Source of the DNA: Imbricaverruca yamaguchii
Lineage: Eukaryota > Arthropoda > Thecostraca > Neoverrucidae
Direction: 5' to 3'
Length of the DNA: 64,000 nt
NCBI GenBank assembly: GCA_034440575.1
Contig: JAOTOL010001620.1
Coordinates: forward strand, 1,707,001 to 1,771,000
Of this stretch, positions 585 to 38,549 are shown piece after piece. The translations under genes were made by a program, and so were the position numbers. The notes under the pieces are model-generated. The model was not told where the DNA came from. It did not search any database and saw only the letters and a program-made list of their open reading frames with translations. Every line of letters starts with the position of its first letter. Within the stretch, counting starts at the first letter, position 1.

Positions 585-792
585 CTTCGCGAGGGTTTTG
601 TACATTTCTGTATCCATCAACGTTTTCATGGCGAAGAAGAGGGCGTAGGTATTTCCTTGTCCGTCCAGTTCGAGTTCACAGGAGCCACCTCGTGGCGGCC
701 CTCCGCCCGATATCTTGAACTGTGCAGGACTGATGGCCTTCGCCTCGCCGATGAGCCGGATAATTTCCATCTCATAACGATCCTGCACCATG
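585..792 (-). CDS. POMGNT1-like: POMGNT1-like exon 10 seen
   Basis: 208 nt between CGTTGCAG and GTAAACAA. It encodes [19 protein letters not shown], a Gly/Pro-rich stretch with one Cys, then [12 protein letters not shown] and MYKTLAK. It aligns with the family segment 'YE.E...LL..A......C........G..Y..F..M........W..LAK'. The donor means at least one further exon follows; I did not find it in 1-580. Confidence 0.88.
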
Positions 793-3700
793 CTGCAACG
801 GACGACAGCCAGACTGTGTAGGAATGAACAGAACAGATGGGCTCTGTGTGCGAATCCACCGGCGGTGAATGAGCTCTGTGGGGATTCCCCGGCGGTAGAT
901 GGGCTCTGTGGGGGATTAGCCGGTCGCAGGCGGGCTCTCTGGGGAATTTGTTAGTGGCAGACGGACTCTGTGGGGAATCGGCCGACAGCAGACGGACTCT
1001 CTGGGGAATTTGTTAGTGGCAGACGGACTCTGTGGGGAATCGGCCGACAGCAGACGGCTACCGTAAAGATAAGATACATACTGGCAACAGACAAGTGGAA
1101 GGTGCGAATCAGAAGCGTTGGCCAGAAACGAGCTGTTGATGGATAGCCGAAAATATTTTACCGGCGAGGCTGCGAGTGCAATTGTTTGTGCTCGCCCCGG
1201 CATTGCGGCTGGCTGTAGTCAAACTCAGCCGGACACAAACGACTCAACGTCTGTGTCCACGTGATGTTGGGTCCCAGCCCGGCTACTTACTCTTCCACAT
1301 GGCTGAGGACCACGCCCGGCTGTGTGTTGATAACGTGGTCCGTGTAGTACCGCGTGTGGAGGGTGCTGGTGGAGTGGCTGCCAGCGATGCCGAAGTGGTA
1401 GGTGCGCGATATGTCCGGAATGATGCACTCGCGATCCTTGGTGTTGGTGTCCCACCTCATCCACACGTCCCAGCCGGAGTTCTGTCAAAGTGGCGCACCG
1501 TGGCAGATAAACACCTGTCACAGTGGCAGGTGGCAGGGCCACACCCGTCACAGCTGAAAGTCGCATGGCCACACCCGGAACAGTGGCAGGTAACAATGCG
1601 ACACCCGGAACAGTGGCAGGTCACAATGCCACACCCGGCACAGTGGCAGGTCACAATGCCACACCCGTCACAGTGGCAGGTCACAATGCCACACCCGGCA
1701 CAGTGGCAGGTCACAATGCCACCCCCGGCACAGTGGCAGGTCACAATGCACACCCGTCATAGCGGCAGATCGCAGGGCCACACCCGTCATAGTGACAGGT
1801 CACAGTACGGTGCACGGCTGTGCCATGCTGAGATGATGACCGGCGGTAGTACGATGTCGAGTACACACGAGCGACCATACCTGTTCTTTCGCCGGCCACT
1901 TATCCAGAAGTTCTTGAATCACACTTTTCTTCATCATCCAGCCGAGCCCTGGCATGAACTGAACTCTGCAGTAAACAAAATCATTCAGAACGGTGGCACT
2001 CGTATATACCAGTGTACGCTGCCGCGCAGGAAATTTTACCATTGCAGTATGTTATTCAGTAGCGTCTCTTAAACATTTAAAATTTCATCAATCACGGCAG
2101 CCTGATCTCGGCGGCCTGGTCTGGTTACATATACTACAGTTGTTGCGATACAATACGATTAAGAATAGGTATATATACAATTTAAGGTTAACGCATAATA
2201 TTCACCGGATTACGCCCACAGTGGGGCCGGTTTGGATGTGAAATAAGGCAGTACGGTGGGACTATCGTCAGAGCAGGGCAGGACTACAGGCACAGTGGGG
2301 CCGGTTTGGATGTGAAATAAGGCAGTACGGTGGGACTACCGGCAGAGCAGGGCAGGACTACAGGCACAGTGGGGCCGGTTTGGATGTGAAATAAGACAGA
2401 CAGACAGACAGACAGACTTTATTGAGGTCATCCACAATTGACTTGTGGCTATTACGACATCGCGTCAAATAGATAAAACAACACAGCACAAAAGGTAAAA
2501 AAGAGGGTCAAAATCACAGAATACAAGTTAAACTATAAAAAATATATATATAAAATAACAGCAAGTCGAGCAGTCTATCAGTCCGACACGGGTGGCACGT
2601 CAAGTAGATACTCCCGTAGGTGGCGACCAAAGATCGACACGGGAAGTCGCGTCAGCTCAGGTGGCAGTGAGTTGTACATGTGTGGCGCTCTGGAACTAAA
2701 GCGTCTCTTCCCCATCTCGGTGCGGGACCGGGGGACATACAAGTTGTGGTCTTGACGGGTGGTCCGGTCACGAATCTCCGCCATGGTGGTGAGATCGTGA
2801 GCCAGTGACTCTGGCTCACCATGGAGACGCACCTTGTGTATGAGGCGAAGGGTGTGATAACTCGCCTGGTTCTCCGCGCTGAGCCAGCCCAGCCTCCTCA
2901 GCAGATCCGAAACGTGGTCAAACTTTTTGCGGCCGAAAATTACCTTAGCCGAGTAGTTTATAATTTTTTGAATGCGAGATAGGTTCTTTTTGCCTCCGTT
3001 ACCATACACAGAAATACAGTAGCGGATCTGCGAGAAGATCAGAGCATTGACCAGCGCGGAGATGACGGCAGGTGGAAGGTGCCCCCTCAGATGCGACAGA
3101 CCACCCAGAACTCCGAAACAACGCCGAGTCAATTCTGAGACGTGCGAGTCCCAGCTGAGAGAGCGATCGAAAATAATACCGAGATTTTTACATTCCGAAA
3201 TGGTGGGTAGATGATGATCGCGAAATTTCACTACGGTGTACGGTAGTACGGTGGGACTACCGGTAGAGCAGGGCAGGACTACAGGCACAGTGGGGCCGGT
3301 TTGGATGTGAACTAAGGCAGTACGGTGGGACTACCGGTAGAGCATGGAAAGATAACGGCCATAGTAGGGCCGGTTTGTATGTGAAATAAGGCAGTACGGT
3401 GGGGCTACCGGTAGAGTAGGGCTGGATCGCTCTTGGTGATGTCGTAGCCGTGATCGTTCCAGGCGGAGACGCACCAGAGACTTGGATCAGCGTCCAGCAG
3501 GTGCGACGTCTGGCTGAAGAAACTGACCACAAGCACCGGGGACAACAGGGTCAGCGGCTTTGGCGTATTGTAGAGGGACCAATACTGCACCGTGTGCTTG
3601 AGAACCCGTATGCATAGCCGGTGAAAGCTCAAGTGAAACTCCAGGAATGCTCACTTCAGTTCAGCCCACCAGTCCTTCCAAAAATGCATTTGTTACCAGC

Positions 3701-6700
3701 ATGCTTGATATCGTTTAAAATATAAGGGGGTTCACCTTCAGCTGGTTAATGAATGCACCAAAAAAATAGTTCCACCACAGGTTTCAGGCGACCACCTCTA
3801 TGACTAACCTACCGTTCAGAAGCTGAGCCAGTATTTCGTTTTCCCGTACTTCGGACCTGACTCAGAGAGCCTGAAAACTGATGTAGTTTGTGTTGTGAAG
3901 AAATTCTATCTTTAGCTGGATAAAACATTAATATCTTTAATTCCATTCGAAACGGCTCACTTTTTAATTTCAAGTGGCTACCAAAGTGGTGTCTTTCCTC
4001 AGTGGCTTATAAATTCAGTTACTCCTCGTGTGGAACATCATACATAGGTTCCATGCAACTTAACCTCCACTGTAAGATCCAACATTTGAACAAGTGTGTA
4101 CGCAAAGAATATTCAGTCTTCGTCTATCTCCCAAACTTCATCGCCCCTTTGCGTGATACTCTGCTCTTGGCGCTGATAATTTTTCCATTATTGGGAAATG
4201 TAACAAAATGTTGGATCTGTCCGCTTAACTTCTGAAAGTGGTTCTGAAGGTGGTTTTCGATAGAGGTGAATAGTGTTTGTTCTGTCTGTATATTTCTGGT
4301 TGGTGTTCCTGTTCATGTGTAGGTATATGTCGCTCCCGGATATGCATATCGAAATGTGACGATCCACAAAAGCGGTAACCCATTGAGGCCTGTAATTTCT
4401 CAGGTCACAACCCCAACTTATAGACTAGCCAAAAGACTCAATAGTCTATTAAAACCATACGTACCTGCCAAACACTGCATTGATTCCGTCGATGAGTTTA
4501 TCGATATTTTAAGGGCTAAGTCCCCACGTGGACAGCTCGCAACCATTGACGTCAACAGTCTTTTTACCAACGTGCCAATGGAGACAACCATCAAGATCAT
4601 CATTGAGCAAGTGTATGTCAACACTAATCTGACGTTACCCCCGCTGCAGTTGTCGCCCAATATTCTTGCGACGCTGCTCCGTGCGTATACCATGGAGACC
4701 CCCTTCCGTGGGCAATGTGGGCAATTGTATCGACAAAAGGAAGGCGTCGCTATGGGCTCCCCATTAGGTCCTCTTTTTGCAAGCTTTTACATGTGCCACC
4801 TGGAAAACCATGTTTTATGTGACCCGTCTGTTGCGCCTCATATCTACTGCAGGTTTGTCGATGATGTTTTTGTTGATGTTAGGGACAGTGACCACCTCAG
4901 TGAACTTATCTCAAAATTAGAGGAACACTCAGTGCTAACTTTCACATCTGAAACACCAATCGATCGGAAGATTCAATTTTTAGATGTACTTGTAAGCCCA
5001 ACTGATCAAAAGTTTTGCACCTCAGTATACCGGAAACCATCGAATATTGGCTTAGTTATGAACGCAAAAAGTGAGTGTCCTGAAAGATACAAACAGATTG
5101 TCCTGCGTGCCTTTGTAAAGAGAGCAATTCGTAATTGTTCTTCCTATGAACTTCTTCATATAGAATTTGACCGACTAAAACAGATTTAGTAAACAATTGC
5201 TACACAAACACACAGGTTGATGAAGAAATTAAAAAAAAACATGAACAGGAACACCAACCAGAAATATACAGACAGAACAAACAGTATTCACCTCTACTAT
5301 CGAAATTACATGAACTCTGCTTATAAGGTGGATGAGAGAGTCATACAGGACATTATAACAAACAACATCACATGCACCAACAACAAAGATCAGCTAAAAC
5401 TCGTCATCTACTACAAAAACATGAATAGTTGTAATCTTGTAACGAAAAACAATCTTCAGGCCACCAAAGAAAAACTAAAACGTACCAATGTAGTTTACAA
5501 ATTCGCATGCCCATACGAAGACTGTAGGCTTCGTGCAGTAAGCTACATTGGTGCCACCACGACCTCCCTTTCTAGAAGGCTGACAATGCACCTTAGAGAT
5601 GAAGCACCAAAAGAACACATGACGAACTGCCACCAAACACCGCTAACACGAGAACACCTTACCAACAACACCACCATCATCACGTCTAGCCCGGACAGAG
5701 CACGTCTCATGGTGCTCGAGTCATTGTACACACGTGAACACACACCAGAAATAAACAAACAAGTCATCACACACGTCACATTCTGGAATAATGCATGACC
5801 AAAAAGCGGGGGGTGGGGTGTAAACACGTTTCGATGTAGATGCGGTGAATCCAGCGCTTTACGATTGTTGTAAATTGTCAGATGAGAATATGCTTGTTTA
5901 TGCGAGTGGCCCTTCAGGAATTAACAATAGGTGAGGTGATGTTGAGAGAATAGCTCTTGTGAAATCTGTGCTGAATTGATATTTTAAAGTGTACTTGTGT
6001 GTGTATATTTGTATTATGCAGAGCAGTGAATTTGAAAATGGATCAATGTTTATATCCGAAGCGTCAATAAACGAATATAACTGTACATGACACTAGGTGA
6101 AATAATTTACCAGCTATCAAACGAAACGAAGAAAACAATACGATCAATCGAAAACCTAGACAGAAAACTTGCTAAGAACGAAAACCACACAAAGCCATGC
6201 AATGTGCGCCGTACCTGACAAAGTCCGATGACACTTCCAGGTCTTCCTCGAGCACAATGAGCCGACTGGCGTCAGGGAAGTGGTGCCACACGCCGCTCAG
6301 GATCATGCGGTAGTGCTCGGTGATCCGCAGAGTCACGTCCTCGAGATCACTGGTCTGCCACGACACGTGCTGGTCAGTACCGTGACACGTGCCGGTCATT
6401 ACAGTGACACGTGCCGGTCAGTACCGTGACACGTGCCGGTCAGTACCGTGACACGTGTCGGTCAGTACCGTGACACGTGCTGGTCAGTACCGTGACACGT
6501 GCCGGTCAGTACCGTGACACGTGTCGGTCAGTACCGTGACACGTGTCGGTGAGTACCGGGACACGTGTCGGTCAGTACCGTGACACGTGCCGGTCAGTAC
6601 CGTGACACGTGCCGGTCAGTACCGTGACACGTGCCGGTCAGTACCGTGACACGTGCCGGTCAGTACCGTGACACGTGCCGGTCAGTACCGTGACACGTGC

Positions 6701-9700
6701 CGGTCAGTACCGTGACACATGCCGGTCAGCACCGTGACACGTGTCGGTCAGTACCGTGACACGTGCCGGTCAGTACCGTGACACGTGCCGGTCAGTACAG
6801 TGACACGTGCCGGTCAGTACCGTGACACGTGCCGGTCAGTATGACCGACCGTGACACGTGCCGGTCAGTACCGTGACACGTGCCGGTCAGTACCGTGACA
6901 CGTGCCGGTCAGTACCGTGACACGTGCCGGTCAGTACCGTGACACGTGCCGGTCAGTACCGTGACACGTGCCGGTCAGTACCGTGACACGTGCCGGTCAG
7001 TACCGTGACACGTGTCGGTCAGTACCGTGACACGTGCCGGTCAGTACCATGATCAGTAGTATACACTGCACTTGCTGGTCAGTACCAGCACGACACACGC
7101 TGCCGACTCGCCACCTAGTCGCAGGCAGCGTCAGACACAGCGAGCTTTTTCTTCACACCAGCTTAGCCTGAAGGTACTGCAGCTTTACGTGAATCAGCTC
7201 ATTCAAGTACTGAACTTTTGTGTATGTTGAACGTACCACATGATGGTGATATTGCAGTTTACCGGCATAGATTATCCCCCATGATCACAATATCGGCGAT
7301 CACAAATGTACTGAAATGCCTGAGGCAGATTAAATCGTCTCTGTTCAGTAATTGCGAACTGGACTTCCCGGGCCAACAAATAATGCGAACATTTAGGGGC
7401 GCAAGTCTACATCCAACCACAGTCAGCTCACGAAATCGGACTCCATCACACTACCAGGGACAAGCAGTCTAGTGAGGCTTGCACAAAGATGTTTGGTGCC
7501 CACCGGGTATTTTTTCCAGGACTAGTGAGATTGTAACGTATCGTAAGTCCTCCACACGAAGCCGCATGATGGCCTACCATGGGCTGGTGGCCGTCATCTC
7601 GTTAGCCGAGAGAAGGTCGGTGTTCTGGAACTGGAGCGGAACTCCGTCGGTGTTCCCAGATAGCGACGGTATATATCTTGTGCTGGTTGTGTTCATGCTG
7701 AGATAAACTCATCTGGTCAACTTGAGATTGAAAGCATTTCATTACATGAATACTGTTTTCAACGGACCCACCAAGCGGCAGTTGTTCGAATCTCAATGTT
7801 ATTTTTTCCGAAATCAGAAATTAAACGAAATTCCCTGCTCCGAAACCGTCGAAAAACAAGCGTTCTGGACCGGCTACTGTGGCAGTGTAGCAGGCGTTCT
7901 GGACCAGCCACTGTGGCAGTGTAGCAGGCGTTCTGGACCGGCCACTGTGGCAGTGTAGCAGGCGTTCTGGATCGGCCACTGTGGCAATGTAGCAGGCGTT
8001 CTGGACTAGCCACCGTGGCAGTGTAGCAGGCGTTCTGGACCGGCCACTGTGGCAGTGTAGCAGGGGTTCTGGACCAGCCACCGTGGCAGTGTAGCAGGCG
8101 TTCTGGACTGGCTACTGTGGCAGTGTAGCAGGCGTTCTGGACCGGCCACCGTGGCAGTGTAGCAGGCGTTCTGGACCAGCCACCGTGGCAGTGTAGCAGG
8201 CGTTCTGGACCGGCCACTATGGCAGTGTAGCAGGCGTTCTGGACCAGCCACCGTGGCAGTGTAGCAGGCGTTCTGGACCGGCCACTGTGGCAGTGTAGCA
8301 GGCGTTCTGGACCGGCCACTGTGGCAGTGTAGCAGGCGTTCTGGACCAACCACTGTGGCAGTGTAGCAGGCGTTCTGGACCGGCCACTATGGCAGTGTAG
8401 CAGGCGTTCTGGACTAGCCACTGTGGCAGTGTAGCAGGCGTTCTGGACCGGCCACTGTGGCAGTGTAGCAGGCGTTCTGGACCGGCCACCGTGGCAGTGT
8501 AGCAGGCGTTCTGGACCGGCCACCGTGGCAGTGTAGCAGGCGTTCTGGACCAGCCACCGTGGCAGTTTAGCAGGCGTTCTGGACCGGCCACTGTGGCAGT
8601 GTAGCAGGCGTTCTGGACCGGCCACTGTGGCAGTGTAGCATGCGTTCTGGACCGGCCACTGTGGCAGTGTAGCAGGCGTTCTGGACCGGCCACTGTGGCA
8701 GTGTAGCAGGCGTTCTGGACCAGCCACTGTGGCAGTGTAGCAGGTGTTCTGGACCGGCCACTGTGGCAGTGTAGCAGGCGTTCTGGACCGGCCACTGTGA
8801 CAGTGTAGCAGGCGTTCTGGACCAGCCACCGTGGCAGTGTAGCAGGTGTTCTGGACCGGCCACTGTGGCAGTGTAGCAGGCGTTCTGGACCGGCCACTGT
8901 GGCAGTGTAGCAGGCGTTCTGGACTAGCCACCGTGGCAGTGTAGCAGGCGTTCTGGACCGGCCACTGTGGCAGTGTAGCAGGCGTTCTGGACCAGCCACC
9001 GTGGCAGTGTAGCAGGTGTTCTGGACCGGCCACTGTGGCAGTGTAGCAGGCGTTCTGGACTAGCCACTGTGGCAGTGTAGCAGGCGGCAGGGATAGCGAT
9101 TCGTGCCTGGCTGATGCTCGCGATTCCCAGCAGGTGGCGGAAGCTAGTACCTGACTGATGCATTTGATGTCTAGCAGAGCGCAGAGGTCGTCGACCTCAC
9201 GGTGCTCCCCATCCACAAACACAACTACATTGGAGGAAATAATTCCACGATTTCTCAGTAATGAGTTCATCGACCTGAAAGTATACATCATGTAAAACAA
9301 CCTTCATTAATAAAACAAAACGGAATTAGTAGGACTTCCTTTGATTCCTTTGAACTTAAGTGAAAAAGCGTCCTGCGCGACATGGAAATAGGAAATGCAG
9401 GTTAAAAAGCAAACCACCAGATAAAAAAGCAAACCGAAACCACCAGATTTATGCCTATTACATTACTATGCTCCTATCACTTCACCCCAAATACCCCTAC
9501 AATACCAAGAAACAAAAACATTTTGAGTCACGTTATTCAATACCACAATCATGTTTTCAACGAACACATGAACAAATTCGGCCATTTCTGGTTCCAACTG
9601 GCACTGACGAGTATCGTAGACATGAACACTTAGTCGATGGCTGTTATCGGAGCAAGTCTGAACAGCTGCGGGGCCGTTCGTCTCTAGGCCACTACTGCTA

Positions 9701-12700
9701 GGGGGGCGTTCGGCTCTGGGCCACTACTGCTGCGGGGGCCGTTCGGCGCTGAGCCACTACTGCTGCGGGGGCCGTTCGGCGCTGATCCACCACTGCTGCG
9801 GGTTGCGGGAGGCAGAGGTGCGAGAGGAATACTGTGTGGCTGATGGAGCTGGCTGGTGCTCGGCACAGTCTCGTCATCGTCTCACCTGAAGAGCGCCTGC
9901 GGACGATTGCTGGCCACCACTGCGATGGGCACGTCCGTCAGGTTGTTGTTTGCCAGCTGTAAGTGACCAACTGATCGTTAATCGTTTCCATTGGTACAGA
10001 CAACTTTCCCGCGATATAAAAAAATACTTGGTACATCCAAGCAGTCCCCGCGGGTACCGATCACCCTTCCAATGGCATTATTTTGAGTAGATAACTGCAA
10101 GCAGCTACATCTTTTCGGTGGCGGCAGGAAACATCTGGGAGTATATATACATATATAATGTATATATGTATATGTATATAATATGTACATATATAGTGAT
10201 AACGAGAAAGAGAGAGAGAGAGACAGAGAGAGAGACAGAGAGAGACAGAGAGAGAGAGAGACAGAGAGAGAGACAGAGAGAGACAGAGAGAAAGAGACAG
10301 AGGGAAAGAGACAGAGAGACAGAGAGACAGAGAGAGAGAGAGAGGTGTGCATGAATATATGAATGTATGCATGCATGTGCATACGGATGGATGGATGGAT
10401 TTAGGGATTGATGGCCGAATAATTGTACTTGTACACAGCTATTAGCTGAGGTGAAACCCAAACTAAACTACTGGAGGAAATCCACCTTGCCTTCCTGCAA
10501 ACGGAGCTTGTGGATTTCGTACCTGTTCATGGTTCAGTGGCAAAAATTCATCATTCTTGCACCGACATAAGTCGCCGTAACCATCATACTTGAAGCAAAA
10601 CTTCTCTCTTGCCAGATTCTTTTGGGTCTTGATCCAGGGACACAGGATATCTGATTGACACAAAATCCACACGTTCAGTTCAACCTCCAAACGAAAGAAA
10701 ATGGTAAAAACATATGAATGTAGCAAAGCTTCCTGTGGGAGACACTTGACACACATAAATGTAACCTCTACTATCCTTCCGTTCATGTAACGGCAGGTAC
10801 CGCGACAGGAATAATCGGTCACAGCACCGACCGGTACTTGCTTAGTCGGCAGTCGCCGCCAGCCGGGCTGTCGAGGCCAGTGGCTATTGTGACTCCTCCC
10901 CTTCGGTCCTGTTGCACAGCTGACTCCCTGGCGCCGCCGGCCCCCGCTATCTTACGGATGCTGACCTGTCAGTGTCTGACATTGGATGTGACCGTCATGG
11001 ATGTAAAGTGATATGACAGCCAATTCCGGGAACCCTCTGGGAAAATGTGTATCTGTATACGTGTACGTGACAGCATGTAACATGTGTGCAAGTAGATGGG
11101 TAATATGACAGTTGTCTAACTGAACACGTGCGTGAGTATGGCTGAATGGAATGACAGCGAGATCACAGTAGTATGATTGTGATACGATGTCTCAAATGCA
11201 GGTGTCTGTGTAATGTCAGAAGTGGATGTTGTGTGTTCTGAAGGGTGAAGTGTGAACCTGAAATAGTAAGTGTGTCCAGAGTGCAGTGCAAGTGTATATG
11301 GGATGACATCGGTATGACAGACGTCATACCATGCGGTCAATGCCTGTGTTGCCAGGTGTAGGACAGGAATGTATGATGTCACGTGTGTTTTGCCTATATG
11401 TATCACTGCAGGTGTGCCTTGAATGTACGTCTATGGTTATGAATGTAATAGGGACGTGGAATGAACGACAGCTGAATGAATGTTCATGTGTATATGACAT
11501 GTGACAGTTGGGCTGTAGCGCCCAGAAATTCCCGGCTGCCTGTGTGCAGCACGATGCAGCATGTCCGACGGAAGTGGAACGGCCGGCGCTGTGACACCGG
11601 ACATGGCGCACGCGGAGTCAGCTTGGCTCTCGCGGGGCGGCCGAGGCTCAGAGATGTCTGAGCTGGCGGAATATCTCTGAGATAGACAGTGCGACCCGCT
11701 GGTGTAGTGCTTCGGGAACGGCATTGTTCTCGATAGTTCAGAGCTGCGTGACGATGATGTGGCCCTGGCATGGGGCCAAGGGCGGTGGCCCTGAGGTTAT
11801 ATAGTAGGGTGTGTCACGAAGGACCTTTTTTGGAAATTGCACTTTGCGTAGTGAAATTATCGTGCAGATCACCTTAAAAAACCTGTGGTCGAAACCAAAT
11901 CGAAATCAAACAATAAACAAAATATGCGACAGGCCGATAAAGAAACAAATTTGCCGGGCGTCCGGCATTGAAGTCTCCAGTGATGGCGCTCCATTGCGAT
12001 TGGCATCTAACACCACGCGTCCGGCCACCGTCGGAGCGCCGCCGCGGCGCTGTGACGAAAAATGCGGCAGTCGGTGCGGTGGATGACTGATGAATGGATT
12101 CTGGTGATGAAGCTCATTAATACAACTCAATGAAAGTGTTTAGTGGGGTAAAAGGCTTTTGATAAGCACCAGTCGCTTAATAAGTTGCCTGGATATCTGA
12201 CGCATGAAAGAAAGGTTCACTGTACGTCGCTTGTTCGTTCCGTTTTCAATCAGTAGATCTGTCGGCGTATAATGCTAATATTTTCACTTTTGAAAGCTTG
12301 AACATCTTCAAAATTCCTCGTCTGTTTACACCGAAGACCAATTAAATCATTCTGAGACACTTGATATCTTATTGTTATGACAAATAGAGCAGGCGAAATC
12401 GGCATCATGCTCCGTTCCACTAGAACCGAAGGAGACGGGCATACAGCGACGTCACCTTTTGTACGTGCGGCCACGTTTTTTGTACGAACTATCATTTTAT
12501 AACTGTACTACTTGTCTACATGCTCGACAGAAAACCCGACATGAAATCCTTTTTGCTGCTGAGCACTGGCATTGCTGACCTGTGTTTCAACTTCGCCACA
12601 ATGTAACCGTGGCGGCCTCTTCACCAATTACCTTCAAAGACGCCTTGGTCACCACTTTCACCATCCGTTCCACCGTCTGACTGTGCACGGGGTATGGCGG

Positions 12701-15700: not shown

Positions 15701-18700
15701 TAAGTGAATGTATTCTATTTCTTCTTGACTTACAGAACAGTCTGTGCCAATCTACCAACACCTACCAACATCTACCACCAGCACATTGAAGCAACGTTTG
15801 TAATGAGCCATCACATGGAGCCGGGTAGACTGATTTCATGGTGTCAATCAAAATGCTGTCTAATGTTTCGTACAAGGAATGGATGGTCTAATCGTGCGTA
15901 GTCAAAGGCAGCTTCACACATTTGTCTTTCGGAACCTCTCCATTGGCAGCATAGAAGTTCGGTGGATATTTTTGAATGATCCAAGCGGTTCTCTTGGATC
16001 ACTGAAAAATGAAAACACCCGGCTCGGGCACAAACCGTGATTACGACAGACGTGGCATATCACCGACATATTGCTCTTCCATGTTGTGTATTAGCAATGT
16101 CCCGTATTTAGACTAGGAAGCCAATATAGCACATATTGACAGCTCAACTAACCTGACTTCGCCCACAGAGGTCCGTTCAAGTTGAAAAGTCAATTTAGAG
16201 GTTACCTCACATAAATTGGCCAAGGTCGGTGATTTTCGACGACGCAAATATCACGATCGCCTACGAGACTGACACCAACATATTTATGCACCATATATAG
16301 CCGATGTAGGAACACGTAGGCACTCCATATTTTGTAGCCCTGGCCCAAGTGCTTCTTCCCTATCCAAAATATTTGCCAGGGACAGGAACTGCCCCTCTCC
16401 TGTTAGTGAAGAACACGACTGTGATCAGTAGGCTGTTGAGCTAGTCAACCACCCAATGATTATGTGACCCCGATCGTGGTCGGCCACACTGTGGCTGGCG
16501 GTGCAGCATAGTTGACTTGGTAGTCCAAGAAGCTTGATTGGCCTAGCTACGTTAAATCGCACGTGCACACAGCTACATATACTGATGCACACATTGCAGC
16601 TATCAGGTGGGGTCGGCGGTCGCGACCTGACCCCGACACTCCCTTGACGTGGGTCTGACCTTGGATGGCTGGCACGGGAACAGTGAGCGCGAACAGCAGC
16701 GGTTTCTTGTGTTGGTTCGATAAGTGCAAGATGAGCACAGGATTCTGCACATAAGTCTCGGCGAGCACGGCGCCGCCCTTGACACGCGCCAGGGCGTACA
16801 TGTCGGCCTCGTGCCGCTGCCGGAAGTAGCTGGCGCCCATCCGGTCCATGAACGCCACCGCCTCCGGGCTCCTCACGAGGGCCGGTCCGATCTCGCCCTG
16901 CCGGCCGGGCAAGTCCGACTCACGACGTCGCACATCTGAGCAGCTTCCGAGCCGGCAGCGTGGCGATGATTTCGCAGCAGTACAGTCCGGAACAGCCGGA
17001 CACAGTCGCAGGTCTATTGAGCGTCTGACGAGCCCCATGAAGCCAGTCAGAGATGCAAAAGTATCCATCGGAGAAGTGCGCAGTCCTGCTTCGGATCAGC
17101 ACAGGTCATACACCCGATTGGCAAGCCCCCGGTCGACGACACCTGCCCATGTGTCCACTGCTTGTCAGTTAGTTGGTTAGTTATTTGGGCTGTAGGGTGC
17201 ATCGAGCAAGCTGATCACATAGCGCCGATCAAGCTGCTTGTCGGACCGCCGCAACCGGATCCTAGGAAAAAGGAGTTCCTGAGGTCAAAGTACATCACGG
17301 TAGGCCTCGAGCCATCGTTTGCACAATTCACAACACCGAAACGTCCCTTCAGAACAAAGCACACCGGCGTTAATGTCAGCCAACTGGGAGATTGCCAGTG
17401 CGGGGACGGATAACCAAGGACCGACTATGTCAAGTACTCGGCACCGGTCACATCCACACTGCCCCGGCTGCCGGCCACACTGCCGGTCACACCCACACTG
17501 CCCCGGCTGCCGGCCACACCCACACTACCCCGGCTGTCGGCCACACCCACACTGCCCCGGCTGCCGGCCACGCCCACACTGCCCCGGCTGCCGGCCACAC
17601 CCACACTGCCCCGGCTGCCGGCCACACCCACACTGCCCCGGCTGCCGGCCACACCCACACTGCCCCGGCTGCCGGCCACACCCACACTGCCCCGGCTGCC
17701 GATCACACCCACACTGCCCCGACTGCCGGCCACACCCACACTGCCCCGGCTGCCGGCCACACCCACACTGCCCCGGCTGCCGGCCACACTCACACTGCCC
17801 CGGCTGCCGGCCACACCCACACTACCCCGGCTGCCGGTCACACACACACTGCCCCGGCTGTCGGCCACACCCACACTGCCCCGGCTGCCGGCCACACCCA
17901 CACTGCCCCGGCTGCCGGCCACACCCACACTGCCCCGGCTGCCGGCCACACCCACACTGCCCCGGCTGCCGGCCACACCCACACTGCCCCGGCTGCCGGC
18001 CACACCCACACTGCCTCAGCTCCCGGCCACACCCACACTGCCCAGGCTGCCGGCCACACCTGCCGGCCACACCTACACTGCCCCGGCTGCCGGCCACACC
18101 CACACTGCCCCGGCTGCCGACCACACCCACACTGCCCCGGCTGCCGGCCACACTGCCGGTCACACCCACACTGCCCCGGCTGCCGGCCACACTGCCGGTC
18201 ACACCCACACTGCCCCGGCTGCCGGCCACACTGCCGGTCACACCCACACTGCCCCGGCTGCCGGCCACACACACACTGCCCCAGCTGCCGGCCACACGCA
18301 CACTGCCCCGGCTGCCGGCCACACCCACACTGCCCCGGCTGCCGGTCACACCCACACTGCCCCGGCTGCCGGCCACACTGCCGGTCACACCCACACTGCC
18401 CCGGCTGCCGGCCACACACACACTGCCCCAGCTGCCGGCCACACACACACTGCCCCGGCTGCCGGCCACGCCCACACTGCCCCGGCTGCCGGCCACACCC
18501 ACACTACCCCGGCTGTCGGCCACACCCACTCACCACGGTGAAGAAGAGCAGGACGTCGCGCTGTCGCGAGTCGCGCACCAGCCGTCGCATGGCGTGGCCG
18601 GCGTCCATCGACATCCAGCCGGAGAGCAGGGCTTGCCCCTGCAGCCGCCCGGTGATCGGGTGCACCACCACCAGGAACAGGCCGCGACCCTGCGCGTTGG

Positions 18701-18752: not shown

Positions 18753-18982
18753 CTGCGCGGCACACGCGACGGCGTCGGTCAAGGTCGGGTCATCGGCGCC
18801 GTCAGGGGAGCGGCAGTGGCGGCAGCACGTGACACGCAAACAGTCGCGCTACTTGAGCTAGCGACGTACGAAAGGCGGCCACCAACAGCTTGCTGAAAGG
18901 AAGCTACTGCAGTCCACGGACAATGTGTTGGCTACGTTTCAGAAGGTTACTGCACGTTAATGTTTGTACTCAATATCCTCAG

Positions 18983-19189
18983 ATTTAGCACGGAAAAAGA
19001 AGAACCTTGGGTTCTTTTACGACGCATTCAACCTGTAGGTCACATAGCGTCGCCAACCTCTCATGCGAGTGGTCGCAGGTGGACTCGGTAAATTTCGTCG
19101 GCTGTGAGATTCGAACCCACAATCTTGCGATCAACAGTCCGACGCTCTACCAACTGAGCTATCTCGACCCCTGGAAATTCAGCACGGAA
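18983..19189 (-). mobile_element. tRNA-derived SINE, type 1 (181 bp) with target duplication
   Basis: Insert 18996-19176 between ATTTAGCACGGAA and ATTCAGCACGGAA (12 of 13 match). On the minus strand the head starts GGTCGAGATAGCTCAGTTGG (A box). It has GTTG in the anticodon-loop place and GGGTTCGAATCTC (B box), so it is tRNA-like, closest to tRNA-Asn by anticodon GTT. The tail ends ...GTCGTAAAAGAACCCAAGG. Confidence 0.9.
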
Positions 19190-23500: not shown

Positions 23501-23597
23501 CGTTATGGATTGTGCCATCCTCATGCACTCGCCCTGGCATGGCGTCAGCTGCGGTCAGACAGCACAGTAATGCTAGGATCACACCACGAAGCCGCAT
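23501..23597 (-). CDS. Candidate first exon with signal peptide
   Basis: The minus-strand ATG at 23597 opens MRLRGVILALLCCLTAADA, with a short basic start, an 11-residue hydrophobic core, small residues and a plausible cleavage site after ADA. MPGRVHEDGTIHN follows, then a good donor G|GTGAGTTG at 23500. It ends in phase 1. It lies on the same strand as, and upstream of, the POMGNT1-like exons, but the phase does not fit the exon at 18752. Either an exon is missing between them or this is another gene. The frame also extends upstream of the ATG. Confidence 0.35.
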
Positions 23598-24600: not shown

Positions 24601-24619
24601 CTCAGCCCAAGTAGCTGCA

Positions 24620-26064: not shown

Positions 26065-26088
26065 ACACACACACACACACACACACCT
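26065..26088. repeat. (AC)n microsatellite
   Basis: About 12 CA repeats, followed by AT-rich sequence. Confidence 0.95.
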
Positions 26089-28250: not shown

Positions 28251-28251
28251 G

Positions 28252-28764
28252 GTGCGCGTCGGCATCCCTCTCCGGCCACCGGGATCCCTCTCCGGGCTCC
28301 CTCATCCGCTGCTCCAACTACGCTACGCTACCAACTACTGCAGTGACGTCACACCGTCTACACCAATCACCGACAACACATATCGTGCGTCGGCCGAACC
28401 CAGCTCCGGCCAGCGCGCATTGGACGGCCGCCAGAACCAGCCGGCACTCGTTCGCCGGCTGGCAATCGCGGCGACGATTGCCGCGGCGCCGCTGAAGTCG
28501 GCCGAGCCGCTGAAGATGGCGGAGCTGCTGAAGACGGTGCCGGCCGCCGACGCTCTGGACGTCCAGCTGGGCCACATCAGCATCCGGGTGCACCCGGACC
28601 TGCGGCGGTGTGCGCTGGCGGCGCGGCCGACGCCCGCGGTCGGCGACGATGGCTCGTGGAGCATCCCCGGCATAGACGTGATCCGCGACGGCCACAACGG
28701 CCACCTGCGACGCCTGATCTGGCTGCTGGTGCTGGCCTTCTGCGTCGTCAACATGCTCGTGCAG
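28252..28764 (+). CDS. DEG/ENaC exon 1: cytoplasmic N-terminus and TM1 (5' limit uncertain)
   Basis: The frame is open from 28252, but the true start may be a later Met, for example the one opening MAELLKTVPAADALDVQLGH. Before TM1 it reads SWSIPGIDVIRDGHNGHLRR, then LIWLLVLAFCVVNMLVQ, and the donor CAG|GTAGGC at 28765. The family gating motif just before TM1 is normally His-Gly; here it appears as Pro-Gly (SIPGI). The exon is very GC-rich. Confidence 0.82.
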
Positions 28765-31700: not shown

Positions 31701-34700
31701 ATCAAGCTCGAGAAAATGTGCCGCCTTCTTCCCGTTGCAGGTGTCCATTGCAGTCGTACGCTACACCGATCACCACGTGATGACGTCGTGGACAACCATT
31801 TCCGGCCAGCAACTGCAATTTCCTGCTGTCACTGTATGCAGCAACACGCCTTGGAAGGACAGCTTCCTCGCAGAGTACCAAGGCGCGGAGGTGCCGAGTG
31901 TACCCCGGCCGCGAATATTGCGGATATTCCGATTCGGAGACGATGATATGGCTAGCTTCTTCTGGTAAGTGAACGGTTGCTTCTACTGGTAAGTGAAGGG
32001 TTGCTTCTACTGGTAAGTGAAGGGTTGCTTCTACTGGTAAGTGAAGGGTTGCTTCTACTGGTAAGTGAAGGGTTGCTTCTACTGGTAAGTGAAGGGTTGC
32101 TTCTACTGGTAAGTGAAGGGTTGCTTCTACTGGTAAGTGAAGGGTTGCTTCTACTGGTAAGTGAAGGGTTGCTTCTGCTGGTAAGTGAATGGTTGCTTCT
32201 ACTGGTAAGTGAATGGTTGCTTCTACTGGTAAGTGAAGGGTTGCTGGAGGGACGGCGTGGTCAGAATACGTCAATTAGTGGAAGAGCTTTGGATGGACCG
32301 CAACCTTTAGCTCCGTATGCAGCGCGTCTGTATTGCCACGACGAGATGAGTGGGTTAGAGTAAATTTCAGCTTGATTTTGTGAAAAGGTAGAATGCTCCC
32401 ATTGCTGCTTGCAGTGTTGATATAATGTTAATAAAAAACGACCTTTTCACCCAATCTATTCTCGCCACAATTGTTCGATGTCCGCAGATATATGTTCTCG
32501 CAACAACGAATGGGTTGAACTTGAGACTAGACAGGAATAGATCAGCATGAAATAACGAGGACGGGGATAGAATACGTTAAAGACCACATACCGTGTAATG
32601 GGAGGTTAGCTCAATCTTGCAGGGAGCAAAATTAGGATACGTGAGAGACAAATAAATAAAGATGAGATAAAATAAATGCAGACAGCTAGCAAAGCGGCTA
32701 GCTGTTCTGGAATCGAGTTAGCACCAACTGGGACGAATGACCCGACCACGAAGTACTCGGCTGGGAGGTGGGGGATCAATGTAACCGCCGCAACTGTATC
32801 ATGTCGGGGATAGGGGAAGGAAAGGTCAGAACCGTTACGGAAAGGTCAGACGGGCAGGCGGGTCCACTCGTCGAGTACGACGCGGGGCACGGTGACGAAG
32901 ATCGCGAGGGAGACCCGCCAGACGGACCTGTACCTGGACCGTCGGGCCAGTCCATTCAGCCGACTCAGATGTCGCCGGATACAGCCACTGGGACACGTCA
33001 GGAAGATAGCGTATTTTCCTGAAGCTTGCTAACTTTCAAGGTGGGATCGGACCCCATGGAAAAATGATCAGGTGGTGCCCGAACCCAGAGGACCCCAGAG
33101 ATGGCAACGCCCATGACCAGTATGGCGTGTTTATTATTTACCTTCTCTGGGCACGTAGTACATTCCTTCTTTATGGTGCATGCGCTTGAGCAAATGCTTT
33201 ATTTTACGGCCTTTGTGTAGGTCTTGTCACGGATGTTTTGCCTGAGATTTTGCAGTAAATTGCATCTCGCCACATACCGAATGAGGCAGCAATTTCCTCA
33301 CATCTGGGCTTTCTGGTACACTAACTATCAATGACACACTGATCGTGCTATCGATGGTGTGCCGATTCACTATCAATGACACATTAATTCCACTATCGAT
33401 GGCGCACTGTTGCACCATCGGTGTCACTCTCATGCACCATCGATCGCACAGTGATGCAGTATCGATAGCACACTGATGCACCGTCGACGGCAGACCAACG
33501 CAGAATCGATGGCAAACTGATGCATTGTCGGCGACAGCCTGATTGCACTATTGATGGCACACAGATTGTATTATCGATGGCACACTGATGCACAATCAAA
33601 GGCGTACTGATGCACTTTGGATGACACACTTGTTCACCATCAATAACACACTGGTGCCGTATCGATGACACACTGATGTAGCATCCATGACATTGATGCA
33701 CCATCGATAGCACACTGATGCGCCATCGATGACACACTGATTCAGTATCGATGACACACTGATGCAGTACCCATGACACACTGATGCAGTACTCATGACA
33801 CACTGATGCAGTATCGATAATACACTGATGCACCATCGATGACGCACTGATGCACTATGGATGACACTGATGCAGTATCTATGAGTAAATGATGTGGCAC
33901 CAACGACTGACCTGCGCGGCTCGCTGACGTGTATCACCCTGGACACAAGCCGCTACCAATCATCTCCCGACAGGAACGCGTCTCTTCACGCCGACGACAT
34001 GCTCGACCGGTGCTTCTACAACGACCAGCCGTGTGACAGCTCAACCGTGGAGACATTCGAGACACAGGTCGGTGCACCTGTTAAGTGTATTTTGTATTTC
34101 ACGCGCAGTGGATAGTCCCTGCTCGAGGTGGACTGCGGAGGAGGGGCCGCAATGCGATTGCAGGAGGGCTGCTGTGGTGTTCTCCACATTGCCCTAGGAT
34201 TTCGAGGACTAGTGGAGCTGGCGATGTGAAGTTCTCACGGAGGACAGAGCTGAGTCCTCTAACAGGACTTTAACGGATTGATAGGGTCAAGCCATCCTAT
34301 TTTCCCGGTTGCCAAGCCGCGATTATGGATCAGTTGACATAATCCATGAGTCCACGTGACTTCATCTTCAGCTACTTTAACTTGCATTTACATTCGTACT
34401 TCAACATACATTAACACGCCTTAACATGGCATGACGGAATGCTCCAAACAAATCGAAATGCTCGGACATCCCACCGAGCAGAGCGTCACCAACCCGCCCG
34501 ATGCCATCTGCATCTGCCCTGCTTTGTACCGCATAGAATATGCTTACGCTTACAAGTCCACCACGTGGGTGATAAGAGACCGTTCATGTGCATCTGCTCG
34601 CACGCACACCTGCACCGGGCCGAGCAGCAGGAGGAGGGCAACTACTGCTTCAGCCTGCTGGCGCGACAGCCGCCGGCCGTGTCGTTCGCGCAGCCCCAGA

Positions 34701-37700
34701 TGCTGCTGTTGCTGCGCGCCGCCCAGCCGGGCGGCGAGCGTCAGTCTAACGCCGGCTGGAGGCTCTACGTGCACGCCCGCGAGGTAAACAGCTGACGAAC
34801 TGAGACCACCACTCGGCTGAGTGCAGCGGCGACGGAACGCTTCCAAAATAACGAGGGAGGAGGAGGAAACATGAGTATACTATGTCATTACTTACGTCAA
34901 TACAACGTCAATGCAACGTCAATAGATCTCATGTGAAGCCAGAGGGACATCCCCCAGAAAAGTATGATAAATTGTGTGCGCGTGTGCGTGCATATGTGTG
35001 TATCGATGTGTATGAGTGAGTGTGTATGAGTGAGTGAGTGTGTATGATGTGAAGCAGGCTTATACCATTTCATTCACCTGAAACACGCACTTGCCCCTCA
35101 TCCGGCATTGTCTCCCAGTGTGCCCAGTAGCCCAGAGTCTACTACCTCAGCATCCACTACCTCAGCATCCACTACCTCAGCATCCACTACCTCAGCATCC
35201 ACTACCTCAGCATCCACTATCTCAGCATCCACTATCTCAGCATCCACTACCTCAGCATCCACTACCTCAGCATCCACAACCTCAGTGCCCCCCTCCCCCT
35301 GCCCCACCCCACCGGGGGCGGACATCACGCGCGGTCGGCCGGCGCCGGCAGGTGCCGTTCCACCAGCCGTGCATCGCCGCCGGCTGGTACACGGAGCAGC
35401 TGCTGCCGGCCAGCGGCCACATGACCACCATCACGGTGCGCCAGCGCGCCTTCAGCCGGCTCGAGTGGGGCTCGGCGCGCCGCGGCGGCGCCTGCGCAGC
35501 GGCCGCCACCATGGCAGACTTCGTGCGCTGCGTGCGGGCGTGTGGCTTCCGCAGCCTGCTGGCAGACTCGGGCGCCGCCTGCCGGCTGCCGCAGATGACG
35601 TCAGAGTTCAGTCAGCTGGCCGCCTGCGCCAGCTGGCGCGACGTGGAGCCCATCGAAAGACACCAGCTGCAGGTCAAGAAGTCCGAGGTGGTGGCCAGCC
35701 GGAGCATGCGCGCGTGCAACTGCACCACGCCGTGTCACACACAGGTAATGGGCAGATAGTGAGCTGCTAATGAGCAGGTAATGAGCGCCATGCCGTGTCA
35801 CACAGGTAATGACCACCACGCCGTGTCACACACAGGTACTGACCACCACGCCGTGTCACACACAGGTAATGGGCAGGTAATGACCACTAACCCATGCCGC
35901 ACACAGGTACTGACCACCACGCCGTGTCACACACAGGTACTGACCACCACGCCGTGTCACACACAGGTACTGACCACCACGCCGTGTCACACAAAGGTAA
36001 TGGACAGGTAATGACCACAACACCGTGTCACACACAGGTAATGACCACCACGCCGTGTCACACACAGGTACTGACCACCACGCCGTGTCACACACAGGTA
36101 ATGACCACCACGCCGTGTCACACACAGGTACTGACCACCACGCCGTGTCACACACAGGTACTGACCACCACGCCGTGTCACACACAGGTACTGACCACCA
36201 CGCCGTGTCACACACAGGTAATGGGCAGGTAATGACCACTAACCCATGCCGCACACAGGTAATGACCACCACGCCGTGTCACACACAGGTAATGACCACC
36301 ACGCCGTGTCACACACAGGTAATGGGCAGGTAATGACCACTAACCCAGGTCGCACACAGGTAATGGGCAGATAGTGGGCTGGTAATAAGCAGGTAATGAG
36401 CACCACGCCGTGTCGCACACATGTAATGGGCAGGTAATGAGCACCACACCGTGTCGCACACAGGTAATGGGCAGGTAATGAGCACCACGCCGTGCTGCAC
36501 TCAAGTAATGAGCACTACGCAGTATTACAAACATAATGAACAAGTAATGCGCATGTAATCAGCGAGCGCCATGTCGTGTCGCTCATTACATGCCATACCG
36601 TGTCGCTCATTACACAGAGGCAATGAACAGGTAATGTTCATTACCTCTGCGTATGAGGTAATGAACATCACCTGTTACCACGACTACCACGGGGAGTCGC
36701 ACACAGGTAATGAGCAGGTAATGAACAGACAATGAGCACCACGCCGTATTGCACACAAGTAATGAGCACCACACCGTGTTTCACACGTAATGAAAAAGTA
36801 ATGAGCAGGTAATGACCACTACGGCATGTCTCAGCTGCTAGCTGGTTGCATATTCCCATGCCCGAGCGGACAAGTATTGCAAAAAATGCGTGCTTTTGCC
36901 CTTCGGGCTATTGACGATTGATTTGTTTGTGGAGGACTGAATATTCATTAGAGTGAAGGAACGGGCATCGCTTGGTAAAGCAGATTCATGATAAACAATA
37001 CGTTCTCTAGACCGGCTGAAGGCACGTTAGGTAATTCGCTGGAAGCATTCATACACGATTGAATTTCCCAGCAGTGTCGTGAAATTCAATTGTCTCATCA
37101 AACAAGTTGATGAGGAACAAGGTAACTACGTGAGCTGTCCTAGCCATCATCCTAATAAAACCAGATCAGTCGTCTCTTCGACACCAATCGACACAATTTC
37201 TGCCGTTTGCATCTGATCTGGTTCACTTCACGCTTCCAAAAACCGCCTCGGTTGCGGTTTTGTCGATAGTAATCGGCTATAGCGCTCGGTTCGAGAGTGG
37301 CAGGCCCTTGACCAAAGTCTAAGCCCGGCTAGACTTTCCCGGCTGGATCCTACCCAGGGGACGGCCCCCGGCCAGACTTTCCCGGCTGGATCCCACCCAG
37401 GGGACAGCCGCCGGCCAGACTTTCCCGGCTGGATCCTACCCAGGGGACGGCACCAGCTGGAGAGTGTGCTGCGGGACTAACGCCGACCGACCGACGCCCT
37501 CGGCGGCGGGCTCACGGGCATGATTCGTCCGAGAGCAGACCAGCAGGTCCGGCGGCACGGCCCGAGAGCAGACCAGCAGGTCCGGCGGCACGGCCTGAGA
37601 GCAGACCAGCAGGTCTGGCGGCACGGCCTGAGAGCAGACCAGCAGGTCCGGCGGCACGGCCTGAGAGCAGACCAGCAGGTCCGGCGGCACGGCCTGAGGG

Positions 37701-38549
37701 CGTGCCTCGCCTCATGTCACCGGGCACCAGTAATCGAGACAGTTGCGCCGCGTGCCCACCGCGCCGCTGCGGGAAACTGGGAGCAGGCGGGTGAATAGGA
37801 CTGTCCCCCAACGGTGCCGGAACATGAAACATCCGCCGTGTACATAGTGTGTGCACATGTCCAAATGTGTGTACTGCAAAAATCACCAAGTAGTGGACTA
37901 AAGAAAAGATGTGCTTTTCGGCAAAGAATGGACACAAAAACGAAAATTTTAGACTGCTTTAAAAATCGTTTGTATGCTGCGGCTTTATTCATCTATTTCC
38001 CCGTTTTTCGGAGATGCCAAAATCCCACTTTCAGACACGAATTAGCACGCCAACTAAGCTTGATCAAAGTCTGGACTATGGTGCGCAAAGGCCTGGCCAA
38101 TCTGCGCCGAATTCCCGTCCTTTAATATTCGAATGCGTTCAGTTGATGCAGCGCCGGCAGGAATAGCTCTTCAGCACCAACACACACCGCCAGCGTCGCA
38201 TGCCGCCGCGACCAGCTGGGCCGAACCGCCGTCAGCGCGCCGGTGTGCTCGGCAGGACTACATGCAGATCAAGACGGTGACCCAGTCGCCGGACGAGATG
38301 CCGCTGTTCGACGGGACCGTGCACCGGCTGCGCGGCCAGCCGGTGGCGCTGATCGGCATCCAGCTGTGGAACGAGCGCACGGCCATGGTCGAGGCGTGGC
38401 TGTACACGGCCAACCAGCTGATGTCCGACATCGGCGGCCACCTGGGCCTCATGCTGGGCGGCTCCGTGCTCACGCTGGTCGAGCTGATCGACCGGCTCGG
38501 CTCACACTGCGCCGCCGCCTACCGCAGGCGGAGGCGGGTCGGCCGCTGA
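28252..38549 (+). CDS. DEG/ENaC amiloride-sensitive sodium channel gene (six exons)
   Basis: Exons: up to 28764; 31741-31964; ~33.9 kb-34067; ~34625-34783; 35352-35744; 38256-38549 (stop). The junctions exon 1/2, 3/4, 4/5 and 5/6 are compatible in phase; 2/3 is unresolved. Family knowledge: DEG/ENaC subunits form trimeric, sodium-selective plasma-membrane channels with two membrane segments and a large Cys-rich ectodomain. Seen here: TM1 (RRLIWLLVLAFCVVNML), the FPAVTVCSNTPW motif after TM1, CFYNDQPC, the AGWRLYVHARE palm strand, a 131-residue Cys-rich exon ending ACNCTTPC, and the pre-TM2/TM2 block SDIGGHLGLMLGGSVLTLVE. The total of ~510-580 residues fits the family. It is arthropod pickpocket-like in style; I cannot name the subfamily. 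Confidence 0.92.
29135..29204 (-). mobile_element. Headless mini-retroposon (50 bp), TAAGATTTTG duplications
   Basis: Insert 29145-29194 sits between two copies of TAAGATTTTG. It carries TAGTTATTTGGGCTTACGGG and GCGCATCGACTGCG. It lies in DEG/ENaC intron 1. Confidence 0.8.
29575..29805. repeat. ~36-39-bp GAGCTCCT repeat, ~6 units
   Basis: GAGCTCCTCCTGTTGTCCTC, alternating with GAGCTCCTGCTGCTCCTGA, in DEG/ENaC intron 1. It is open on both strands and not a gene. Confidence 0.88.
29806..31740. other. DEG/ENaC intron 1, 3' part; nothing recognised
   Basis: Mixed sequence. The open frame at 30883-31173 (+) is Arg/Lys-rich without a known motif. A polypyrimidine tract and CCCGTTGCAG end the intron at 31740. 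Confidence 0.5.
31741..31964 (+). CDS. DEG/ENaC exon 2: post-TM1 segment
   Basis: 224 nt, phase 0 in and phase 2 out. It encodes VSIAVVRYTDHHVMTSWTTI, then LQFPAVTVCSNTPWKDSF and ends FGDDDMASFF(W/C). FPAVTVC..NPW is the family signature after TM1. The exon ends GCTTCTTCTG|GTAAGTGAA and is followed at once by an array that repeats that junction. Confidence 0.92.
31952..32245 (+). repeat. 24-bp array that repeats the exon-2 5' splice site (~12 units)
   Basis: The unit is GCTTCTACTGGTAAGTGAAG plus GGTT, 24 bp, nearly uniform (a few AAGTGAATGG and TTCTGCTGG variants). The first unit overlaps the exon end GCTTCTTCTG|GTAAGTGAAC. Each unit thus offers TG|GTAAGT, a near-ideal U1 site. Confidence 0.97.
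32246..33310. other. DEG/ENaC intron 2; nothing recognised before the next array
   Basis: Mixed sequence. The frame 32768-33022 (+) is acidic/Gly-rich and unassigned. Confidence 0.5.
33315..33885. repeat. ~22-24-bp degenerate repeat, ~25 units
   Basis: Variants of CATCGATGACACACTGATGCA repeat up to the start of exon 3. Many units hold GATGCAGTATC. The proximal units lie directly upstream of the exon-3 acceptor region, making that acceptor hard to place. Confidence 0.9.
33894..34067 (+). CDS. DEG/ENaC exon 3 (acceptor uncertain)
   Basis: The frame gives SRYQSSPDRNASLHADDMLD, then RCFYNDQPCDSSTVETFETQ, with donor CAG|GTCGGT at 34068. 'L..C.F....C....F' after the post-TM1 segment is the usual first Cys pair region of the ectodomain. 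An in-frame TGA at 33882 limits the exon start to its right. A phase match to exon 2 is possible at the weak acceptor ACACAAG|C near 33950, but a missed exon is also possible. Confidence 0.7.
34625..34783 (+). CDS. DEG/ENaC exon 4: palm/beta-strand segment
   Basis: It encodes EEGNYCFSLLARQPPAVSFA, a Leu-rich stretch QMLLLLRAAQPGG and NAGWRLYVHARE, with donor GAG|GTAAAC at 34784. It fits 'G.CYTFN.....L....G...GL.L.L......AGF.V.VH...E'. The start could be after CGAG, CAG or CAGCAG (34625, 34628 or 34631); all keep phase 0. Confidence 0.8.
34970..35045. repeat. (TG)/(GAGTGTGTAT)n microsatellite
   Basis: TGTGTGCGCGTGTGCG, followed by repeated GAGTGAGTGTGTATGA. Confidence 0.85.
35129..35285. repeat. 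15-bp array CCTCAGCATCCACTA, ~10 units
   Basis: Fifteen is divisible by three, so frames stay open (SASTT repeats). Each unit contains ACCTCAG|C, a 3'-splice-site-like word, ~70 bp upstream of the exon-5 acceptor. Confidence 0.95.
35352..35744 (+). CDS. DEG/ENaC exon 5: Cys-rich ectodomain
   Basis: 393 nt (131 codons), phase 0 at both ends, after GCCGGCAG. It encodes VPFHQPCIAAGWYTEQLL, HMTTITVRQRAFSRLEWG, a Cys-rich run and finally SRSMRACNCTTPCHTQ. The T-x-I-x-V strand and the closing C.C..PC are family features of the thumb/palm region. The exon ends CGCCGTGTCACACACAG|GTAATG, and that junction is then repeated in tandem. Confidence 0.92.
35724..36515 (+). repeat. 30-bp array that repeats the exon-5 end and its 5' splice site
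   Basis: Units read ACGCCGTGTCACACACAGGT then ACTGACCACC or AATGACCACC, 30 bp, with some units extended by GGGCAGGTAATG. More than 15 copies of CACACAG|GTA(A/C)TG follow the real donor. Beyond 36340 the units are more diverged (GTAATGGGCAGGTAATGAGC). Confidence 0.96.
36516..37320. other. DEG/ENaC intron 5; nothing recognised
   Basis: The first part still holds scattered GTAATGAGCA words from array decay. The rest is unremarkable. Confidence 0.5.
37322..37700. repeat. Two adjacent arrays: 43-bp x3 and 33-bp x5
   Basis: 37322-37445 repeats AGACTTTCCCGGCTGGATCC every 43 bp. 37515-37700 repeats GAGCAGACCAGCAGGTCCGG every 33 bp. Confidence 0.93.
38256..38549 (+). CDS. DEG/ENaC exon 6: TM2 and C-terminus
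   Basis: 97 codons plus TGA, after TGCTCGGCAG. It encodes DYMQIKTVTQSPDE, a middle strand segment ALIGIQLWNERTAMVEAW, then LMSDIGGHLGLMLGGSVLTL and VELIDRL. The SDIGG.LGL.LG.S.LT.VE block is the pre-TM2/TM2 signature, with the GxS selectivity filter as GGS. The C-terminal tail is short and basic (AAYRRRRRVGR). Confidence 0.95.
   Translation, partial: DYMQIKTVTQSPDEMPLFDGTVHRLRGQPVALIGIQLWNERTAMVEAWLYTANQLMSDIGGHLGLMLGGSVLTLVELIDRLGSHCAAAYRRRRRVGR

Follow-up and report, generated by a model that had tools for sequence, protein, structure and literature searches.

Minisatellites that repeat exon–intron junctions in the barnacle Imbricaverruca yamaguchii, weighed against a repeat-rich genomic background

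Do the tandem arrays that abut exons in two neighbouring barnacle genes betray a process aimed at exon borders, or do they reflect a genome in which arrays lie nearly everywhere? The question is raised by a 64,000-nucleotide stretch of Imbricaverruca yamaguchii DNA (the window, meaning the whole stretch analysed), which lies within a 2.8-Mb contig of an assembly of 767 Mb in 1430 contigs. A preliminary description of this DNA had proposed that minisatellites begin at many exon ends of two unrelated genes, that each junction amplified on its own, and that slippage at junctions or selection for redundant splice sites acts at exon borders throughout the genome.

We predicted exon edges from homology, GT-AG signals and splice phase. 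The joined minus-strand exons match the human POMGNT1 structure (PDB 5ggf, E 3.2e-78), and the barnacle Amphibalanus amphitrite supplies their best protein match (79% of the query aligned at 59% identity). On the plus strand lies a DEG/ENaC channel gene, whose joined exon model matches PF00858 with E 1.3e-24. In the following models, the six POMGNT1 exons from 1291 to 9956 were each placed by homology, splice phase and the 5ggf alignment.

585..792, minus strand: POMGNT1 exon, from splice phase and the 5ggf alignment of the joined exons
1291..1481, minus strand: POMGNT1 exon
1881..1965, minus strand: POMGNT1 exon
3409..3522, minus strand: POMGNT1 exon, donor repeated in an array
6215..6354, minus strand: POMGNT1 exon
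9151..9274, minus strand: POMGNT1 exon
9886..9956, minus strand: POMGNT1 exon
10523..10650, minus strand: POMGNT1 exon, from homology
18534..18800, minus strand: probable POMGNT1 stem-domain exon, donor end at 18533 defined, upstream end not
31741..31964, plus strand: DEG/ENaC exon, donor repeated in an array, from splice phase and the PF00858 joined model
33974..34067, plus strand: DEG/ENaC exon, from splice phase and the PF00858 joined model
34628..34783, plus strand: DEG/ENaC exon, acceptor picked by phase
35352..35744, plus strand: DEG/ENaC exon, donor repeated in an array, from splice phase
38256..38549, plus strand: last DEG/ENaC exon, with stop codon, from splice phase and the PF00858 joined model
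52497-54079, minus strand: third gene, encoding an RNA-binding protein (RRM_1, PF00076, E 6.8e-15)

The probable stem-domain exon reached only E 1.6 in tblastn and had no match in a Pfam search; it is 92.5% conserved in a second copy of the locus (see below). An exon start formerly placed at 33885 was rejected, the DEG/ENaC exon beginning at 33974. Past the DEG/ENaC stop codon, 13-bp arrays start after 17 bases (38566-39532). The third gene, which we take to resemble RBMS/shep, has no array within 900 bp of the three edges tested, and open reading frames in the remainder of the window gave few Pfam matches. An insertion in a POMGNT1 intron (4219-6179), presumably Penelope-like from its look, carries a reverse transcriptase ORF (RVT_1, E 3.3e-9) followed by a second ORF. 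A tRNA-like repeat at 19000-19170 (Rfam tRNA, 39.4 bits) has relatives elsewhere in the window (54233-54395, 58454-58600) and in seven of the 60 sampled loci, and is probably a tRNA-derived SINE; ARAGORN found no tRNA gene in the window and left this repeat uncalled.

To relate arrays to junctions, we measured the distance from the first intron base to the nearest array found by Tandem Repeats Finder (TRF), at predicted exon edges, and compared the 40-mer of each junction with the array in 14 rows of 300 shuffles each (lowest attainable p=0.003).

2217..3421, minus strand: 74-bp splice-donor array whose unit holds ∼14 exon bases and the donor; junction 3409, compared with two arrays, scores 28 and 30, p=0.003
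31955..32245, plus strand: 24-bp splice-donor array by TRF, 12 units, GT kept in all; junction similarity p=0.003
35742..36793, plus strand: 30/41-bp splice-donor array by TRF; junction similarity p=0.003
17444..18529, minus strand: 27-bp array starting 4 bp inside donor 18533; score 17, p=0.003
6362..7052, no strand: array of a 22-bp unit in 31 copies, with acceptor 6355 at a distance of 7 bp; score 14, p=0.010
1511..1804, no strand: array of 30-bp units, with acceptor 1482 at a distance of 29 bp; score 11, p=0.08
837..1057, no strand: 31-bp array, not junction-like, 44 bp from acceptor 793; p=0.11
7860..9086, no strand: array of a 34-bp unit in 36 copies, with donor 9150 at a distance of 64 bp; p=0.99
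9665..9802, no strand: 33-bp array, not junction-like, 83 bp from donor 9885; p=0.71
33324..33883, no strand: 22-bp array, not junction-like, 90 bp from acceptor 33973; p=0.99

TRF found an array at every place that the preliminary description had named. Three of these arrays cross a predicted splice donor and hold exon sequence within the unit. Specifically, donor 3408 lies at 0 bp from array 3245-3421, which is broken at ∼2400-3244 by an insertion and resumes at 2217-2399; donors 31965 and 35745 likewise lie at 0 bp from arrays 31955-32245 and 35742-36793, the latter keeping GT in 14 of 18 analysed 30-bp units, with decayed units at its end. The claim that the unit is the junction itself or a close variant in at least four cases (3410, 18533, 31952 and 35724) stands as similarity, all four reaching p=0.003, but only three span the donor, the unit of 17444-18529 being a loose copy of the donor region of the 18.5-kb exon. 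The unit of 6362-7052 contains no acceptor AG and its junction match is weak, and the resemblance of 1511-1804 to its acceptor is weak and not significant. We rejected the arrays at 837, 9086, 9802 and 33883 as junction arrays, as they lie 44-90 bp off and show no junction similarity; p values at junctions 792, 1881, 9151, 9886, 33974 and 35352 ranged from 0.11 to 0.99. The row for the stop codon (38549) gave p=0.007, a match that is not specific, because another junction outscored it on the same array. The units, described earlier as differing in length and sequence, mostly do differ, but 8 of 45 pairs have more words in common than shuffled sequences do (p<0.02), 1511 and 7860 among them. 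In the spanning cases the repeated sequence is that of the adjoining junction itself, in support of the earlier view that each junction seems to have amplified on its own.

The arrays match the structure of the ‘mirages’ of amphioxus, minisatellite-like tandem copies of exon–intron boundaries at 5′ and 3′ edges, which the available portions of two papers describe in Adh3, the globin genes BflGb6 and BflGb9, troponin C and PGBD5, together with normal mRNA and somatic instability (PMC3087553, PMC3902484). As far as those portions go, the likeness extends to a unit that spans the boundary (in three window donors and in 11 of 128 other predicted edges, see below), to both 5′ and 3′ boundaries being hit, as on both sides of one kinesin exon (L046), and to the retention of AG/GT by many, though not all, units. 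In amphioxus the arrays differ in length between haplotypes; the barnacle arrays do so between diverged gene copies that may be alleles or paralogues. The barnacle arrays differ in belonging to another phylum, in coming with a frequency (the same 11 of 128) and a background load, and in being known from DNA alone. They also resemble ordinary intronic minisatellites (VNTRs) in their homogenised units of ∼20-80 bp and in copy numbers that vary between copies, unlike which some founders take in an exon end and splice site. A further parallel is human UBC and the DSS model of intron creation, in which, according to the text available, coding repeats hold AGGT sites used both ways (PMC10809524): AG/GT lies within the unit in nine of 15 junction arrays, but the barnacle repeats are intronic and AGGT is common at other junctions too. 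It occurs at 32 of 64 donors and 11 of 64 acceptors in our sample, so that its presence in nine arrays is not clearly above background. The portions seen of the open-licence PMC literature searched held no report of mirages outside lancelets; those of the barnacle genome papers treat repeat content and not junction arrays, and that of a Daphnia tandem-repeat paper makes no statement on splice sites.

Diverged gene copies offered a view of array dynamics. Contig C1413 holds a second copy of the POMGNT1 locus with exons 88-100% identical and main non-coding blocks ∼77-89% identical; it covers ∼25 kb of the region (C1413:2617501-2667500, L007-L011) and may be a highly divergent haplotype or a segmental duplicate. 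No counterpart of the DEG/ENaC gene turned up in the examined 50 kb of this copy. Arrays 837, 1511, 2217-3421, 6362, 9665 and 17444 are all present there with other copy numbers, 17444 being shorter. The insertion at ∼2400-3244 is missing from it, a 67%-identical relative lying elsewhere in the copy region; where the window has the 4219-6179 insertion, the copy has ∼570 bp of different sequence. Array 7860-9086, with 36 copies in the window, is represented in C1413 by a single 34-bp unit with a CAGGCG word on either side; the two words are spaced by 34 bp, which reads as a classical slippage seed. Likewise, two kinesin copies on contig C1362 (L046 and L047), ∼570 kb apart and 94% identical in their longest block, have junction arrays of unequal repeat number, the difference being about one unit in one case and two in the other. 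Copy numbers thus differ between diverged gene copies, which may be alleles or paralogues.

Does the proximity of arrays to exons in the window exceed chance? Arrays with a period of at least 7 take up 19.9% of the window and 20.9% of its non-coding part, as against 26 of 3310 modelled exon bases. When arrays were shuffled within introns, four lay within 10 bp of an edge versus 0.8 expected (p=0.005); we rejected this yardstick because it forbids straddling. Rotation of the arrays over the window gave five of 29 edges within 10 bp versus 6.0 expected (p=0.67) and 12 within 100 bp versus 7.7 (p=0.12). Raw coverage alone was also rejected as a yardstick, because each added unit swells intronic coverage. 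The fairest null reduces each array to one founder unit, since extra units inflate coverage yet are no extra births; under it, five edges were observed versus 3.0 expected (p=0.16). Because arrays cover 20% of the window, closeness to exons there is at the level of blind placement. From the window by itself no excess at exons can be established, the test being not significant under two of the three nulls.

We therefore turned to other genes of the same assembly, locating exons by Pfam profiles: 30 matches each for myosin and kinesin, taken with 1.5-kb flanks, and a replicate of 20 kinase exons with 0.5-kb flanks (31 edges), namely the first in the list that were free of stops and had both ends within the domain. 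Each edge was predicted as the best splice signal near a match end. L047 was dropped beforehand as a near-duplicate of L046; of the remaining 152 raw match ends we kept the 128 with a suitable splice site no more than 20 bp away (64 donors, 64 acceptors). L051, a copy of L049, was kept and adds no count within 25 bp. In the 60 myosin and kinesin loci (196 kb), arrays cover 17.9% overall and 2.4% of matched exons. An array spans the junction, with at least eight bases on each side, at 11 of the 128 predicted edges (6/64 donors, 5/64 acceptors). In a myosin gene (L037), for example, the exon end CCCAGCAG with the adjoining GTGAGGAG recurs as 39-bp units, 20 of which were analysed; in L046, 74-bp units run across the acceptor of a kinesin exon, and 57-bp units across the donor of the same exon; and in a kinase gene (L084) the exon end coding the HRDLK motif recurs in the intron as 33-bp units.

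Across the 128 edges, 22 array starts lay within 25 bp of exons versus 11.2 under the founder-unit null (p=0.0005-0.001), and 17 within 10 bp versus 8.9 (p=0.005). The excess was stable at TRF thresholds of 50, 80 and 120, a gene bootstrap over 49 clusters placed its ratio at 1.33-2.71, and the 152 raw match ends pointed in the same direction (25 versus 15.2 within 25 bp, p=0.003). With the window and L047 included, the density of array ends in DNA outside arrays falls from ∼7 per kb at 1-10 bp to ∼0.9 per kb beyond 100 bp. An early founder-collapsed profile, with a three- to fourfold excess, was rejected because short flanks biased its far bins, and per-flank simulation was used instead. The kinase subset alone was not significant (4 versus 3.5 within 25 bp, 3 versus 2.9 within 10 bp). 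Raw array bases show no pile-up at exon edges: in the first 99 edges, coverage was 13% for the nearest bases (0-10 bp), then 26% (50-100 bp), 22.5% (200-500 bp) and 17-19% (farther out). The excess of array starts beside exons is probably real, and moderate rather than strong.

These counts bear on a mutational process specific to exon borders, such as fork stalling, R-loops or template switching, by which junctions would amplify far more often than other sequence. The roughly twofold excess of starts within 25 bp over 128 independent edges, the drop in array density within ∼100 bp and the junction arrays on both sides of the L046 exon are what such a process would leave. Raw coverage at edges, however, is no higher, and a second copy within 600 bp (score at least 20) was found for only 13 of 99 junction 40-mers as against 85 of 396 intronic control 40-mers. 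Moreover, neither the kinase subset nor the window is significant by itself, and the excess weakens once 40% of the flank is assumed to be unable to form arrays. We consider such a process unlikely.

The assumption about flanks also bears on chance alone: with arrays this dense, some would have to touch exons, and array-poor insertions and other exons might dilute the deeper flanks and so mimic a twofold excess. The rotation test in the window accords with this, as does the figure of at least 40% repeats that the accessible portion of one paper gives for a related barnacle (PMC8270832). When 40% of the flank was taken as inert, the excess within 25 bp was no longer significant (p=0.07), but it persisted at 0-30% (p 0.001-0.02), which makes a purely fortuitous origin rather improbable.

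Might selection maintain the repeated splice sites, either as spare donors or as decoys that bind U1 and aid splicing? GT is kept in 12/12, 14/18, 19/20, 5/6 and 8/8 units of five donor arrays, and core AG mismatch in three acceptor arrays is 0, 0.067 and 0. Splice-site columns vary less, and so stay nearer consensus, than other columns in nine of 11 arrays (mean mismatch 0.062 versus 0.091, Wilcoxon p=0.04); three of these arrays, however, have just two or three units, two acceptor arrays show the opposite, and the 17444-18529 unit does not keep the donor as a donor. Use of the next donor would preserve the frame in five of nine donor arrays and would be both in frame and stop-free in only two, so that the copies do not look built for use; the first decoy would shift the frame or hit a stop in the other seven. 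In L046 and L084, splicing at the next donor would extend the protein in frame by a peptide free of stops. Arrays that lack splice sites are equally common nearby. Selection for redundant splice sites, as formerly suggested, has the column variation in its favour and seems very improbable as the main cause.

We favour, at a probability of about 60%, the reading that the arrays are by-products of a very repeat-prone genome, mainly blind in origin, with a modest excess at exons. Minisatellites would begin as local tandem duplications, in line with an array load of ∼18-20% of the sampled DNA, and some founder duplications would by chance cross an exon–intron junction. One intact copy would stay at the exon, presumably preserving the splicing of the gene, and surplus copies would accumulate on the intron side, homogenised and lengthened as a VNTR, as array structure and copy-number differences suggest. 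Selection would remove exonic arrays, which could account for their near absence from exons. The roughly twofold greater density of array starts within 25-100 bp of exons than in deeper intron of the sample may come mostly from slippage seeds at splice sites (AG/GT, pyrimidine tracts) and from older DNA flanking exons that is less diluted by insertions. Against a blind origin stand the excess over the founder-unit null, steepest at 1-10 bp, and the lower variation of splice-site columns, which hints at some selection. Since blind array formation and the purging of exons would yield most of the pattern, a process aimed at borders is possible but not needed. Collectively, the pattern described from the window is confirmed beyond it, in junction-spanning arrays and in array starts at about twice the null, and the causal inference drawn from it is partly supported.

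Amphioxus junction minisatellites have been described gene by gene, and the idea has been put forward that new introns may arise from them. We suggest only tentatively, and with more doubt than belief, that minisatellite birth has a general hotspot at the exon borders of this crustacean, with about one in ten splice junctions amplified and births exceeding those in introns at least twofold, a supply sufficient for introns to be gained or to slide and for new in-frame repeats to form in exons (cf. L046 and L084). With arrays at ∼9% of sampled junctions, this barnacle would allow study at scale of how the spliceosome deals with rows of identical sites, of any special mode of mutation at exon borders and of a possible conversion of arrays into introns. 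For annotation, the arrays carry a warning that in such genomes an exon end may be repeated many times within the intron.
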